Shown: positions 38,911-44,044, counted from the first letter of the stretch. The stretch is 64,000 nt of DNA from an uncultured Erysipelotrichaceae bacterium (GCA_902802905.1 CADCNT010000001.1:1-64000), one strand, 5' to 3'. Translations and numbers: made by a program. Notes: generated by a model not told the origin, from the sequence alone.

Positions 38911-39213
38911 ATGGAATCTTATAAACTTACTCGAAAATTAAATGTCATCGCAAAGACATATTTATCACTTTTAAAGTTTAATTGTGATCTTTCATCTTTA
39001 TCCTCATCTCATAATTCTTATATTAAATTTTGCTCGTGCGTAGAGTTATCCTTTCTATCCTTACCAGCCCCCTTAAGAAGAATTATTAATAATGATTTCT
39101 TTTATCAAGATTATCCTGGGTGGTGGAAGCTTTGTTATAGCAAACATCAATATTTAAAACTCAAAGAATTAGCAATTAAAAAATTTATGGAGGCATATTA
39201 TGAAATCAACTAA
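38911..39213 (+). CDS. Hypothetical protein, first gene of the Tad-like operon
   Basis: A 100-residue basic, Ser-rich and Lys-rich protein. The end DYPGWWKLCYSKHQYLKLKELAIKKFMEAYYEI has a W-W-x(3)-Y-S-K-x(2)-Y pattern that I recall from small proteins of Mollicutes and related Firmicutes (MG284/MPN403-like), but the match is weak. No membrane helix or signal. It could be a regulator of the operon. It overlaps the next gene by 14 bases. Confidence 0.65.
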   Translation: MESYKLTRKLNVIAKTYLSLLKFNCDLSSLSSSHNSYIKFCSCVELSFLSLPAPLRRIINNDFFYQDYPGWWKLCYSKHQYLKLKELAIKKFMEAYYEIN

Positions 39214-40165
39214 AAGAATTACCTCCTTAGTTTTAATTACTCCTCTGCTTTTGGGAGCGGGTATAGACAAAAAAACTATTTATATCAGTAGTGATATTAT
39301 ATCTTGCCCAACGCCTAACGAGAATCAATCCATGAGATTGTTTTTTACCGCTGCCGGAGCTAGATCTTTTACTTTAAAAGTAAATGTATATAACAACAAA
39401 ACGAACGCACTTACGTACACTCAAAACTATGAAATACAAACGTTTTCTACAGGTGTCGCTATAGAAAATATTACATTACCTTTTAAAAATAGAATAAATG
39501 GCGATGGATTAAAAATAGAATTCGTTATAATTCAAGGCAAAGAAGATTTTAAATATTCTGGTGTTTTGTTTCCTTATGTAAAACAAAGTATCAATGTCTC
39601 TCATTATCGACATGAACCTTATGTTTCTCAAAATTCGATAATTAAGTTTGATGCTAACACGGTTATAAATGATGAGTATTTTGATTTTACAAACTTAAAT
39701 GAATATCTATCTTTAGGAGCAGGAAATACTCTTGACTTAAATAACATCACATTTAATGTCGATAAAAGATTAGGGTTTGTAGCCGATAAGATTAAGCTTC
39801 ATATCAAGGATTACGCCAACATTTTTACTGGCATGAATAGAATTAAAAACTTAGTCGAATTAAACATGGACTACACTTATGATAATGGTGAAGTAAGTCT
39901 TCATCTAAACGAACAAATGTATGTTAATAAAAAGACACTAGAAATGAGTGCTACTCAAAAAGAAGGATTTGAGTTAACTGACAAGCTTTATTTGCCGGTT
40001 GGAAAAGAGTCTCTTTTTGAAGAGGATGAAATCTACATCTCTATAAGTGGAGGTGGTTATTCTAAGACCGATATTACTATGCCATTTTCCTATTTTTTTG
40101 ATAGCAAAGAAGTGGGCCAATGCTATGAGTCTGATTACTGTATTTCTGGAGGTATTAGAGAATGA
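39200..40165 (+). CDS. Exported protein of the Tad-like operon
   Basis: A 321-residue protein with a hydrophobic N-terminus (RITSLVLITPLLLGAG) that acts as signal peptide or anchor. The rest is beta-rich (repeated T/S/V strands, two Cys near the end: QCYESDYCISGG). No known domain was recognised. GGAGG precedes the ATG (39200). Its position between a small regulator-like gene and the ATPase operon suggests a surface component, perhaps a minor pilus or secretion partner. Confidence 0.6.
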   Translation: MKSTKRITSLVLITPLLLGAGIDKKTIYISSDIISCPTPNENQSMRLFFTAAGARSFTLKVNVYNNKTNALTYTQNYEIQTFSTGVAIENITLPFKNRINGDGLKIEFVIIQGKEDFKYSGVLFPYVKQSINVSHYRHEPYVSQNSIIKFDANTVINDEYFDFTNLNEYLSLGAGNTLDLNNITFNVDKRLGFVADKIKLHIKDYANIFTGMNRIKNLVELNMDYTYDNGEVSLHLNEQMYVNKKTLEMSATQKEGFELTDKLYLPVGKESLFEEDEIYISISGGGYSKTDITMPFSYFFDSKEVGQCYESDYCISGGIRE

Positions 40166-40545
40166 TTTTTATGCTCATTTTCTCAATAATTGGTGTAGTT
40201 TCGCTACAATATTTTGCTTTAAACTTCTCAATCCAAGGATTAAATAGAGCGATACTATTTACCCCAATTGAATTGATGTATAAAAGTGTACTTGCTTATG
40301 GTGAAAAACCTCAATTTATAAGAGAAGATTTTGAAAATCTAATTATGACTTATTATTCTCATGTTCTACCAAGATATGCCAAACAATATGAAGTAGACTT
40401 TTATTACTACAATAGTGAAGATGAATCAATGTGTTTAATAGATACTTGTGATGGAGTAGAAATAACTATCGATTGTAAGTTAAATGTTACATACAATTAT
40501 CACCGCGTAATGTATTACGAAATGAAAGAGAGCCACAATGGATAA
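40162..40545 (+). CDS. Small membrane-anchored hypothetical protein
   Basis: A 127-residue protein with one N-terminal membrane helix (FMLIFSIIGVVSLQYFAL) and a soluble domain containing ILFTPIELMYKSVLAYGEKP and a hydrophilic second half. Pilin-like size and topology suggest a minor pilin or pilus assembly part, but no prepilin cleavage motif is clear. It overlaps both neighbours by 4 and 8 bases. Confidence 0.55.
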   Translation: MIFMLIFSIIGVVSLQYFALNFSIQGLNRAILFTPIELMYKSVLAYGEKPQFIREDFENLIMTYYSHVLPRYAKQYEVDFYYYNSEDESMCLIDTCDGVEITIDCKLNVTYNYHRVMYYEMKESHNG

Positions 40546-41593
40546 AACGAAGGCACTTTACTACATCGAAAACTCATTTTTATCATCTCTTTTACATGAT
40601 GAAGATGTCACTGATATCTCTTATAATGGAGCGGATATTTTCTATGTCTCTAACTCCAAAGGAAGAATTAAGAGTGACATTGTTATTGAGCAACAATTAG
40701 CGAGAGATTTCCTACGTCAGATTGCAAACATATCAGAACAGCAATTTAGCTATACCAGTCCGATATTAGATGTCTCGATTGATAAATATAGAATAAACGC
40801 TGCTCATCAAACGATTGGCAAAATCAATAATGAAGATGTTGTCACTTTTTCAATAAGAATCGCCTCAACTAAGCCAAGAATAACCGTCGAAAGTGATTTC
40901 TTTACGCCTTTACTCGTAGAACTTATATCTTTGATATCTAGTAATCACCGCTCTATGGTTATTGGTGGTATTACAAGTTCTGGAAAAACAGAATTTCAAA
41001 AATATATCCTAAGAAATTTTCAAAGTAACGAAAGAGTTATTGTTATCGATAATGTTTTAGAACTAGACGCAATTAGACAAGATAGTGATATCGACCTTAC
41101 TTGTTGGAAAGTGGATGAGAAAAATCCATATACGTCTTGTAGTCTTCTTATTAAAAATGCTTTAAGAAACAATCCGGATTGGCTTATTTTGGCTGAAGCT
41201 AGAGATAAAGAAATGGTGGATGTTCTTAATTCTGCCATGACCGGCATTCCTTTAATCACAACCATTCACGCTCATGATGTTTACTCACTTCCATTTAGAA
41301 TGGGCAGAATGGTCCTTAGAGGCGATCAAAAGTTAGATTATGGGGAAACACTCAAAGACATCTATTATCATTTCCATTTCTACTTTTATTTAAAAAAGAA
41401 AGTGATAAATGGAGAAATTAAAAGATACATCTATCAAGTGGGATATATTGATAACAAAGGCAAATATTTTGATATTTATCAAAGAAGAGGAGAAAAACAC
41501 ATTTATCATCCTTTATCAGAAAGTGCGATTTCACTTTTAGAAATTGATAACGTTTCTCCTTTATTTAGAACAACTTTTTTGGAGGGCAAATAA
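40538..41593 (+). CDS. CpaF/TadA-type secretion ATPase
   Basis: A 351-residue ATPase that powers pilus or secretion assembly. The N-terminal domain (about 1-130) precedes Walker A GGITSSGKTEF (about 147-157), the Asp box (VIVIDNVLELD), Walker B-like LILAEARDKE and the His box TTIHAHDVYS. It resembles CpaF/TadA rather than ComGA because of the N-terminal region and the TadB/TadC-like partners that follow. It is about 50-100 residues shorter than typical CpaF. It probably forms a hexamer in the cytoplasm. Confidence 0.88.
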   Translation: MDKTKALYYIENSFLSSLLHDEDVTDISYNGADIFYVSNSKGRIKSDIVIEQQLARDFLRQIANISEQQFSYTSPILDVSIDKYRINAAHQTIGKINNEDVVTFSIRIASTKPRITVESDFFTPLLVELISLISSNHRSMVIGGITSSGKTEFQKYILRNFQSNERVIVIDNVLELDAIRQDSDIDLTCWKVDEKNPYTSCSLLIKNALRNNPDWLILAEARDKEMVDVLNSAMTGIPLITTIHAHDVYSLPFRMGRMVLRGDQKLDYGETLKDIYYHFHFYFYLKKKVINGEIKRYIYQVGYIDNKGKYFDIYQRRGEKHIYHPLSESAISLLEIDNVSPLFRTTFLEGK

Positions 41594-41594
41594 G

Positions 41595-42311
41595 ATGAAA
41601 AAATACGCTCCAATATTTATCTTTTTCTCTTTATTACTTGCAGTAGTGGCCTATATCTCCATGGAAAATATATTTATTGCCATTGGCGTTTTACTCATTT
41701 CCGCTATTGTTTCTTTATTACTCATTATCCCTTTACTCGTTAAAAGCTCTTTAAGAAGAAGCAAATTTGCAGAATGTTATCACTTTATCAATAATTTCAT
41801 CATTTCTCTATCAATCAAGAAGTCTATCACTGGAGCGATGGAAACTACTGTTGGTAGCATGCCTAGCGAATTTGTGGACTTATTCAATTCTTTAGAAAAC
41901 ATGTCAGAGAATGAAAAACTAAGTTATTTATCGTCTTATTTCGAATTCTATGATTATCAGCTATTTTTACAAATCATCTTTCTTTGGGAAGAACAAGGTG
42001 GCGACATCTTCAAAATGAGTAAATATCTTTTAGATGACTTAAGAAATAATGAAGAGTATCTAACAACTTGTGAATCATTAGCGAAAAGAAAATATGTCGA
42101 GGTTGGTGTTTTATGGGCACTCACATTCGCAATTATTATTTTCTTAAGATTTTCGCTTAAAGATTTTTATGACAGGATCAAAGGTCAAATATTGTTTCTT
42201 GTTGCCATTACCGCCATTATCTTATTCTCGCTAATATCCATTTATTTACTAATCAGAAGTGGCACCAATTATAAATTGAAAGGAAATATGTCTCATGAAA
42301 AAGAGTCTTAA
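41595..42311 (+). CDS. TadB-like inner-membrane platform protein
   Basis: A 238-residue protein starting at ATG 41595 behind GGAGG (41581-41585); a longer in-frame start lies inside the ATPase gene. Two N-terminal helices, then a cytoplasmic GspF/T2SSF-type helical domain (FINNFIISLSIKKSITGAM, FLQIIFLWEEQGGDIFKMS), then two C-terminal helices. It matches TadB/T2SSF topology. It overlaps the next gene by 17 bases, as TadB and TadC genes usually do. Confidence 0.78.
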   Translation: MKKYAPIFIFFSLLLAVVAYISMENIFIAIGVLLISAIVSLLLIIPLLVKSSLRRSKFAECYHFINNFIISLSIKKSITGAMETTVGSMPSEFVDLFNSLENMSENEKLSYLSSYFEFYDYQLFLQIIFLWEEQGGDIFKMSKYLLDDLRNNEEYLTTCESLAKRKYVEVGVLWALTFAIIIFLRFSLKDFYDRIKGQILFLVAITAIILFSLISIYLLIRSGTNYKLKGNMSHEKES

Positions 42312-42966
42312 AGAAAGAATTGAGGCATTAGGCCTTTCATATTCTAGAGAATTAACAATTTTATTTGCCATTATATTAGCTATTGCAGGCATTGCTGTTA
42401 CCGCTATTATTTTGCTCAAGCAATTCTATATTGGAATTATTGCTCTAGTAGTGGGTATCATTGCTATTTATTTCTACCTATCTCGCTATTCTTCATTAGA
42501 AGCTAAGCAAAGAAAAGATAATGTGGACCAATTAATGTCGTTATTATCTTACTTTGAAATATTTATCTCCAACGGTCATAACGTATATAACTCGTTTAAA
42601 ATGTTGCTTCCTTACGCCGATGGATTTCTTCAAGAAGCAATCTCTTCATTACTCACTCAAATTGATAGCGATAAATCAGTTGGACCTTATATCAATTTTG
42701 CTTCGAAGTTTGATGATCGTATAGTCGAATCTTTGATGCTTTCCATTTATCAAATGGTGGATAACGGAGAAAGTGAAATTGAACTCAATGAATTTGATAT
42801 CTTGTTCTCAAATATCAAAGAAAAACAAAAAGAAGAGATGATTGATCGCAAAAGAAAATCTTTAGATTTATTTAACTCTATTCCATTAATTGGTGCAGGA
42901 GCGGTCACAATTGTTCTCTCACTCAGCATTATTTCAATCATAGGAGATTACATCAATGTCATATAA
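42295..42966 (+). CDS. TadC-like inner-membrane platform protein
   Basis: A 223-residue protein with two N-terminal helices, a cytoplasmic T2SSF-type domain (LMSLLSYFEIFISNGHNVYNS, LMLSIYQMVDNGESEIELNE) and a final helix (IPLIGAGAVTIVLSLSIISII). It is the second platform subunit, predicted to pair with the TadB-like protein. It overlaps the next gene by 11 bases. Confidence 0.75.
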   Translation: MKKSLKERIEALGLSYSRELTILFAIILAIAGIAVTAIILLKQFYIGIIALVVGIIAIYFYLSRYSSLEAKQRKDNVDQLMSLLSYFEIFISNGHNVYNSFKMLLPYADGFLQEAISSLLTQIDSDKSVGPYINFASKFDDRIVESLMLSIYQMVDNGESEIELNEFDILFSNIKEKQKEEMIDRKRKSLDLFNSIPLIGAGAVTIVLSLSIISIIGDYINVI

Positions 42967-43297
42967 GTTAGGTTTGATTTTATCAATGGTGTTTGTGGTT
43001 CTGTTTCTCCTTTTAGGAGGAGATATGATGTGTTTATCTGCTGCCTATAGCTATTTAGATTCCAATTCGATTTCCGTTGGCTATTTAATTGCTAAAACCG
43101 GAAGAGTAGACAGCGAATATCTTGACTATTTAGAGCAGCTTTACCATTTAAATTTTGAGACGATATCTCCCTCTTCACCAACAGTAGGTGATGTAGTGGA
43201 GTTTACCGTATATAGAATGTATGACCCATTAATTATCAGTAACAGCGAGATAAAACTAACAGCTTCGCGAACCACTGTTATTGGTTATTACGGTTAG
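42956..43297 (+). CDS. Pilin-like minor protein
   Basis: A 113-residue protein with N-terminal MSYKLG followed by a hydrophobic helix (LILSMVFVVLFLLLGGDMM) and a soluble, beta-rich rest. The layout is that of a pseudopilin or TadE-like protein. The first residues after the Gly lack the usual Glu at position 5. It lies between the platform gene and the putative major pilin. Confidence 0.6.
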   Translation: MSYKLGLILSMVFVVLFLLLGGDMMCLSAAYSYLDSNSISVGYLIAKTGRVDSEYLDYLEQLYHLNFETISPSSPTVGDVVEFTVYRMYDPLIISNSEIKLTASRTTVIGYYG

Positions 43298-43311
43298 AAA
43301 GGAGGAAATGT

Positions 43312-43512
43312 ATGTCTGAAATTAAAGGACAACTACTTGGTATCATTTTGACACTAGTGGTCTTTGGTGGCGTTGCTGCTACTGTAGCTGCAATCTATGA
43401 TGATTCAGCAAAGAAAGTGACAAACTACGCTAACAACATCGAAGGCGAACCAGCCGATGAAGTTGGCTATTCAACAGCAGATCACACCCCAATTCTTCAT
43501 TACGGAGACTAA
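43312..43512 (+). CDS. Putative major pilin (Flp-like)
   Basis: A 66-residue peptide: MSEIKG, then a hydrophobic helix (QLLGIILTLVVFGGVAATVA), then a short polar tail ending in Tyr, His and Asp-rich residues (STADHTPILHYGD). Length and layout fit Flp-type pilins. It has the strongest ribosome binding site of the operon (AAAGGAGGAAATGT), as expected for the abundant subunit. The Glu at position 5 of the mature pilin is missing. The usual prepilin peptidase is not found in this window. Confidence 0.65.
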   Translation: MSEIKGQLLGIILTLVVFGGVAATVAAIYDDSAKKVTNYANNIEGEPADEVGYSTADHTPILHYGD

Positions 43513-43521
43513 GTTTAACAA

Positions 43522-43552
43522 GAGAAGAGGCAAAAAATCCTCTTTTCTTTTT
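43522..43552 (+). terminator. Terminator of the Tad-like operon
   Basis: GAGAAGAGG (43522-43530) pairs with CCTCTTTTC (43539-43547), followed by TTTTT. Confidence 0.8.
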
Positions 43553-43593: not shown

Positions 43594-43818
43594 ATGGATG
43601 TTAGACAAACAGTGTCAGATATTTTAGCAAAAAGAATTGATGTCTCTGGCTTAAAAGAAGAAGACAATTTAAAAGAAATTGGTTTGGATTCCCTTGATTT
43701 AGTGGAAGTAATGTTAGAGATTGAAGAGACACTTCAAATTGAATTTGATTCAGATGAAATCGCAGGTTTAACAACCTTGAAAAGTGTCTTGGATTTAATA
43801 AATTCAAAATTAAAGTAA
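43594..43818 (+). CDS. acpP: Acyl carrier protein
   Basis: A 74-residue acidic protein with the phosphopantetheine site GLDSLDLVEVMLEIEE (Ser in DSL). It carries growing fatty acyl chains. The start at 43594 follows GCGGAGGTCATAACC; an upstream in-frame ATG at 43564 precedes this site and is not used. It sits alone, before two tRNAs. Confidence 0.95.
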   Translation: MDVRQTVSDILAKRIDVSGLKEEDNLKEIGLDSLDLVEVMLEIEETLQIEFDSDEIAGLTTLKSVLDLINSKLK

Positions 43819-43884: not shown

Positions 43885-43960
43885 GCCTACCTAGCTCAGT
43901 CGGTAGAGCTATCGGCTGTTAACCGATCGGTCGTGGGTTCGAGTCCCTCGGTAGGCGCCA
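43885..43960 (+). tRNA. tRNA-Asn(GTT)
   Basis: A 76-base tRNA with encoded CCA. Acceptor GCCTACC/GGTAGGC, anticodon stem ATCGG/CCGAT with loop CTGTTAA (anticodon GTT), T-arm GTGGG-TTCGAGT-CCCTC. Confidence 0.95.
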
Positions 43961-43967
43961 CTTAATT

Positions 43968-44044
43968 GGCCTGTTGGAGAAGCGGCTTAACTCACCACCC
44001 TTTCACGGTGGCATTCAAGGGTTCGAATCCCTTACAGGTCACCA
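43968..44044 (+). tRNA. tRNA-Glu(TTC)
   Basis: A 77-base tRNA with encoded CCA. Acceptor GGCCTGT/ACAGGTC, anticodon loop CTTTCAC (anticodon TTC) on stem CCACC/GGTGG, T-loop TTCGAAT. It is similar to the tRNA-Glu(CTC) at 16636-16712. Confidence 0.95.

Follow-up and report, generated by a model that had tools for sequence, protein, structure and literature searches.

A conserved, reduced Tad-like operon without a detectable prepilin peptidase in uncultured gut Bacilli

Gene content and assembly proteins of the operon

The window analysed here is a 64,000-nucleotide stretch of DNA from an uncultured Erysipelotrichaceae bacterium (GCA_902802905.1 CADCNT010000001.1:1-64000), and it carries an operon of eight genes on the plus strand at positions 38911-43512. 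An initial annotation, made from the sequence alone, had described eight tightly packed genes; all eight ORFs, their strand and their coordinates were confirmed, with adjacent genes overlapping by 4–17 bases or separated by gaps of 1–14 bases. An intrinsic terminator, a stem–loop with an 11-pair stem followed by a T-run, marks the operon end (43520-43549, plus strand). The next gene downstream (43594..43818, plus strand), which matches the NCBIfam acyl carrier protein (ACP) models, is likely its own transcription unit. Its adjacency is conserved: in 47 of 55 loci, an ACP gene occurs no more than 900 bp from gene 8. A tRNA-Asn and tRNA-Glu pair follows immediately past the ACP gene (43885-44044), and the operon's neighbour on the opposite strand is a guanylate-kinase gene. 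Genes 2, 3, 5, 6, 7 and 8 of the window matched no Pfam family above cut-off. No secretin, TadZ or RcpC/CpaB gene was found within the operon, as had been claimed, and that statement holds for the operon only.

The first three products had been described as regulator-like, exported and anchored. These descriptions held, with the roles of all three remaining inferred. Gene 1 (38911..39213, plus strand) encodes a 100-aa, HTH-like member of the MG284/MPN403 family (NCBIfam NF045770; E 1.5e-14, 53.7 bits against a cut-off of 37.3), with a further weak match to TIGR01637 ArpU (E 0.01), and is likely a regulator, although this function is inferred. The gene 1 family also lives outside the pilus operon, since in families f20 and f25 (L105-L114) its homologues stand alone. 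At several of these loci the gene lies directly before a PTS enzyme I-like gene and sometimes after an HPF-like gene, both named by reading the sequence.

Gene 2 (39200..40165, plus strand) encodes a 321-aa, exported, all-beta protein (AlphaFold2 pLDDT 90.5) for which neither a Pfam family nor an enzyme signature was found. Its residues 25-127 form an Ig-like N-terminal domain (Z 10, rmsd 2.0-2.4 over ~100 residues). The matched structures, Ig-like domains of transglutaminases and GH2 enzymes, reflect a common fold and were given no functional meaning; a role at the pilus tip or surface is possible and is inferred. For the 127-aa product of gene 3 (40162..40545, plus strand), the AlphaFold2 model (pLDDT 89) shows a long membrane helix at the N-terminus, then a further helix and a sheet of three strands, a predicted shape that resembles a minor pilin. 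A fold search of the PDB gave no clear or specific pilin match: the best rows, pantothenate synthetase and a phage baseplate (Z 5-7), were not discriminating, and the minor pilin PilX (Z 5.2, rmsd 3.0, 86 residues) was found among such rows. The profile similarity of gene 3 to gene 7 exceeded that of 120 of 120 column shuffles; such shuffles lose local structure, which flatters profile-comparison scores.

Gene 4 (40538..41593, plus strand) encodes a 351-aa secretion/pilus ATPase of the CpaF/TadA–VirB11–archaeal clade (PF00437, E 3e-16), in which the Walker A motif, Walker B Glu and His box are all intact by alignment. Searched against the PDB, its profile matched archaeal GspE, VirB11 and CpaF at 1e-33 to 1e-35, and GspE, PilB, PilT and BfpD at only 1e-8 to 1e-17. 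In a maximum-likelihood tree, the ATPases of the family formed one group with those of a non-canonical class of Tad-like operons from other Bacilli (94/89), this joint group adjoined the canonical CpaF of the same taxonomic class (99/94), and PilB/ComGA lay apart from the CpaF side (100/100). The tree rules out ComGA/PilB membership for gene 4. The proposed CpaF/TadA-type ATPase was thus upheld by tree and PDB profiles, and grouping with ComGA, which the initial annotation had named as a refutation, was not seen. Within its own genome the operon ATPase is the sole PF00437 match over cut-off; a second T2SSE match (G000:C5, E 5e-4) fell below it. A divergent ATPase copy in another genome, G065 (L074:6025-7035), has an altered Walker A and has lost the Walker B Glu (RLIFNDIS). 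This copy is likely inactive, given its damaged Walker motifs, and the other operon genes are kept there.

None of VirB4 or VirB6-VirB10, the partners of a VirB11-like ATPase, was found in the operon, where the partners are instead TadB/TadC-like. Genes 5 (41595..42311, 238 aa) and 6 (42295..42966, 223 aa), both on the plus strand, encode membrane platform proteins of this type. The two are mutually homologous (hhalign prob 97.9, E 4e-13), and their family profiles matched canonical Tad platform proteins, at L190 for gene 5 (E 1.5e-12) and at L193 for gene 6 (E 5e-10). The claim of TadB/TadC-like platform proteins therefore held, and the pairing of homologous TadB and TadC expected of a Tad system is met. 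A T2SSF (PF00482) search of the source genome did not detect these divergent platform proteins, and so that profile is uninformative here.

Pilin-like proteins and the search for a prepilin peptidase

From Pfam results and N-terminus counts, gene 7 (42956..43297, plus strand; 113 aa) was classed as a putative TadE/TadF-like minor pilin without a class III leader. Pfam returned TadF in 3 of 41 gene 7 homologues (best 2.5e-4) and weak matches to DUF4320 and TadE in one each; NCBIfam gave no match to these homologues. Gene 8 (43312..43512, plus strand), encoding 66 aa beginning MSEIKGQLLG, was judged by position and shape to be a candidate Flp-like major pilin. The claim that the last gene has the strongest ribosome-binding site held, AAAGGAGG lying ~8 bases before the ATG as the strongest Shine-Dalgarno of the operon. 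Its identity as major pilin is inferred from size, position, a hydrophobic segment and this site; it has no Pfam family, and profiles neither tied it to known pilins nor separated it from them. Had the last two proteins proved unrelated to pilins, the initial annotation would have been refuted. This was not the outcome, the resemblance of gene 7 to TadF, TadE and DUF4320 being weak but repeated.

Both proteins do begin MS(Y/E)..G and lack Glu5, as had been noted. Homologues of gene 8 start MSE(I/L/V)KGQLLG, with Glu3 in 75/75, Lys5 in 74/75, Gly6 in 75/75 and Gln7 in 66/75. The G....E signature could be found in 8 of 13 canonical Tad pilins of the same class, in 0 of 23 pilins of the non-canonical class, and in none of the 75 gene 8 or 77 gene 7 homologues. 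A Flp class III leader with both Gly and Glu5, a further feature expected of Tad, is thus not met, gene 8 having Gly6 without Glu5. Position 2 is permissive for Met removal in 75/75 gene 8 and 76/77 gene 7 homologues, compared with 98/308 background genes. Because related sequences are not independent, these N-terminus counts describe conservation rather than probabilities. No upstream in-frame start that could supply a longer leader exists for the window's gene 8 or for 61 of the 75 homologues.

The initial annotation had reported no prepilin peptidase in the operon and had proposed looking for one elsewhere in the genome. When the source genome (G000; 1.54 Mb, 95.6% complete) was searched with the A24 prepilin peptidase profile (PF01478), no match below 0.001 was obtained, so that, as far as this profile can tell, the absence noted for the operon is genome-wide. 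One candidate (G000:C14, E 0.007) was rejected, the ORF being a GGDEF protein. Across 68 family genomes screened, 62 of them with the operon, an A24 match was seen in two, and the peptidase went undetected in 60 of the 62 operon-bearing genomes. One of the two positives, G081, also has a PilB-like ATPase. The profile works in this class, since nearly all control genomes and the f17 relatives with canonical Tad were positive. The presence of TadV/CpaA (A24) in the genome, also expected of Tad, is therefore not met.

With the peptidase nearly absent and no normal trimming site, a filament of untrimmed subunits is likely, non-cleavage being inferred. Gene 8 does keep Gly6-Gln7, the same residues as the canonical Flp cleavage junction (G↓QALVEY) of related genomes, and cleavage by an unrecognised peptidase is therefore possible. 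In this rival account the pilus is the same, but a membrane peptidase too divergent from A24, or unrelated to it, to be caught by that profile cuts the pilins after Gly6. The strong conservation of Gly6 and Gln7 in gene 8, matching the G-Q junction of canonical Flp (L190-L192), speaks for it. Against it, Gly6 is kept in only 60/77 gene 7 homologues, other families of the order have Ala at position 6 of gene 8, A24 is undetected in 66/68 family genomes, and conservation at residues 3 and 5, within the supposed leader, equals that of the rest. We consider cleavage unlikely and retain the reading of uncleaved pilins.

In the non-canonical Tad-like operons of other Bacilli (L175-L189), the small pilins also start near the mature N-terminus (MKAFFEEYGL, MKDFLGEYGL and MKEATGELN), several of the ORFs beginning two residues ahead of the mature-like sequence (MKAFFEEYGL versus QGMVEYGL). 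Since these ORFs start at about the mature N-terminus, leader loss may be general to that class. A two-helix, TrbC/VirB2-like protein was seen by eye downstream at L178-L180. No report of leaderless pilins was found in the open-access literature searched.

Conservation, ATPase-less loci and the mycoplasma gene cluster

Relatives of the ATPase were found in 88 of 144 related genomes, and the order of genes 1–8 is kept in 41 loci of the same family and order. Of 80 named loci that were fetched independently, all from uncultured gut Bacilli, 61 contain all eight genes in the same order, and most of the remaining 19 are missing genes through contig ends or divergence. Median spacings across the 80 are -11, -4, -4, -4, -8, -11 and +14 bases. 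As 61 of 80 independently fetched loci keep the full order, the arrangement is more than chance; conservation in relatives, a check that had been suggested at the outset, is thus shown family-wide. The records are largely gut or rumen assemblies labelled Bacilli, Bacillales or Erysipelotrichaceae, and include Candidatus Alloenteromonas, Onthovivens and Fiminaster. The Alloenteromonas records share their species epithets with Candidatus Enteromonas pullistercoris and pullicola, which belong to order RFN20, family CAG-826 (PMC8035907), and from this match the window is inferred to belong to order RFN20. No report of a Tad system in RF39/RFN20 was found in the open-access literature searched.

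An ATPase-less cassette occurs in several genera of families f3 and f4 at seven loci (L115, L116, L117, L140, L141, L143 and L144). It comprises gene 1, a gene 2-sized gene, a gene 3-sized gene and one fused or shortened platform-like gene, with a recognisable gene 7 at most of the loci. Neither ATPase nor gene 8 is present at these loci, nor was an ATPase found in these genomes, so that part of the operon works in another context. A platform protein without a motor is unexplained.

Genomes of 0.7-1.0 Mb with in-frame TGA codons (L118-L123, L125-L139), inferred to be those of mycoplasmas, mostly carry gene 1, next to it a gene for a 290-470 aa protein and then one for a one-helix protein of ~135-210 aa, with an ACP gene next in 15 of 21 loci. 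This is what we take to be the MG284-MG285-MG286-MG287(ACP) order. The similarity of the one-helix protein to gene 3 exceeded 120/120 column shuffles, but its hhalign E was 0.03; that of the larger, MG285-type protein to gene 2 was marginal, 1 of 120 shuffles scoring equally high. Homology with the operon is thus suggested by synteny and weak similarity and is not shown, and the cluster may possibly be a relic of the operon.

These reduced loci bear on a second rival, in which the operon encodes a protein or peptide exporter or an envelope complex, the pilin-like proteins forming a short piston or a static complex. In its favour, the f3/f4 versions lack the ATPase but retain genes 1–3, gene 7 and a platform protein, and mycoplasmas retain a gene 1 homologue and two positional equivalents. 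Against it, neither a cargo gene nor a precursor peptide is conserved in the operon, and the major-pilin-like gene 8, which has the strongest ribosome site, is retained at nearly every locus that retains the ATPase. An exporter is judged unlikely.

Proposed function and comparison with known systems

No penicillin-binding transpeptidase was detected in the source genome; the same was true of 32 of the 34 further family genomes tested. The murC match was below cut-off. From the missing transpeptidase the cells are inferred to be, in all likelihood, wall-less. The source genome of this probably wall-less bacterium also contains a ComEA-ComEC operon (L287:754-3287).

A third alternative, compatible with the pilus reading, is a DNA-uptake pseudopilus that feeds ComEA-ComEC in place of ComG. 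It is supported by an intact ComEC (668 aa) adjoining ComEA, by the operon ATPase being the only PF00437 match over cut-off, and by precedent, DNA uptake depending on Tad/Flp pili in both Micrococcus luteus (PMC4322843) and Liberibacter crescens (PMC8513845). Against it, ComEC occurs in 51/75 family genomes with the ATPase versus 5/11 without, which is not significant (Fisher p 0.18), and f5 genomes carry ComEC without the operon. It remains possible.

The initial annotation had offered a reduced pilus, a DNA-uptake machine or a peptide exporter. The first is best supported, the second gained the intact ComEA-ComEC pair without significant co-occurrence, and the third gained no added support. 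We consider it likely (roughly 0.66) that the operon encodes a minimal Tad-like pilus made from uncleaved pilins, for attachment and/or DNA uptake. Under this preferred reading, whose filament formation and function are inferred, the machine would be a single-membrane Tad-like (type IVc) filament assembler. A hexameric CpaF-type ATPase (gene 4) would power the platform proteins (genes 5 and 6), which would assemble the small Flp-like product of gene 8 into a filament, with genes 3 and 7 as putative TadE/F-like minor pilins and gene 2 as a putative exported, pilus-associated surface protein. The pilins would be used without prepilin-peptidase cleavage, the translation start serving as the mature N-terminus; methionine aminopeptidase would trim at most the Met, so that the subunit would begin Ser1-Glu2 in place of the usual N-terminus with Glu5. 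In a probably wall-less cell, neither secretin nor wall passage would be needed. Attachment and, with ComEA-ComEC, DNA capture are the two leading uses inferred. A bolder reading, that this is a Tad-like pilus of wall-less hosts without prepilin processing, the end-point of a Bacilli-wide leaderless class of which MG284-MG287 is the last remnant, is one we would not yet back, the balance tipping slightly against it.

The prepilin peptidase is generally treated as core to type IV filament machines. Among 1656 species surveyed, every listed phylum but Nanoarchaeota had the peptidase together with the ATPase and the platform protein (PMC4471445). With motor, platform and pilin-like proteins in a conserved genome family and no peptidase detected, whether cleavage is needed can be put to the test. 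Such a machine would also represent a pilus of probably wall-less cells and, if the reading is true, a possible source of MG284-MG286, mycoplasma genes that are conserved but uncharacterised.

With the mycoplasma cluster, the operon shares the gene 1 family and the order in which a ~380 aa protein, a ~140-180 aa one-helix protein and ACP follow, whereas the cluster is without ATPase, platform proteins and small pilins, and profiles support homology of MG285 and MG286 to genes 2 and 3 only marginally. With the ComG pseudopilus it shares a possible role alongside ComEA-ComEC, but differs in ATPase clade, in having two platform proteins rather than one, and in the lack of a ComC peptidase. The non-canonical Bacilli class, for which no naming paper was found in the open-access literature searched, has sister ATPases (94/89), the same gene logic and pilins that start directly with MK..E or MKEATG; unlike the operon, many of its loci keep SAF/CpaB-like and TadZ-like genes, and its genomes mostly have A24 peptidases, usually alongside canonical Tad or ComG. 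Tad/Flp (type IVc) systems likewise have a CpaF/TadA-clade ATPase, paired TadB/TadC-like proteins and a very small Flp-like subunit; their TadE/F minor pilins have putative counterparts here, with weak profile matches for gene 7 homologues only. The operon departs from them in that its genome yielded no TadV/CpaA and its pilins lack the cleavable leader and Glu5; it also contains no secretin, TadZ or RcpC/CpaB gene, and its host is probably wall-less. As two defining Tad features, the leader with Glu5 and the peptidase, were not seen, we file the operon as a variant of Tad rather than a member; by its parts it is a real, conserved, reduced Tad-like machine.
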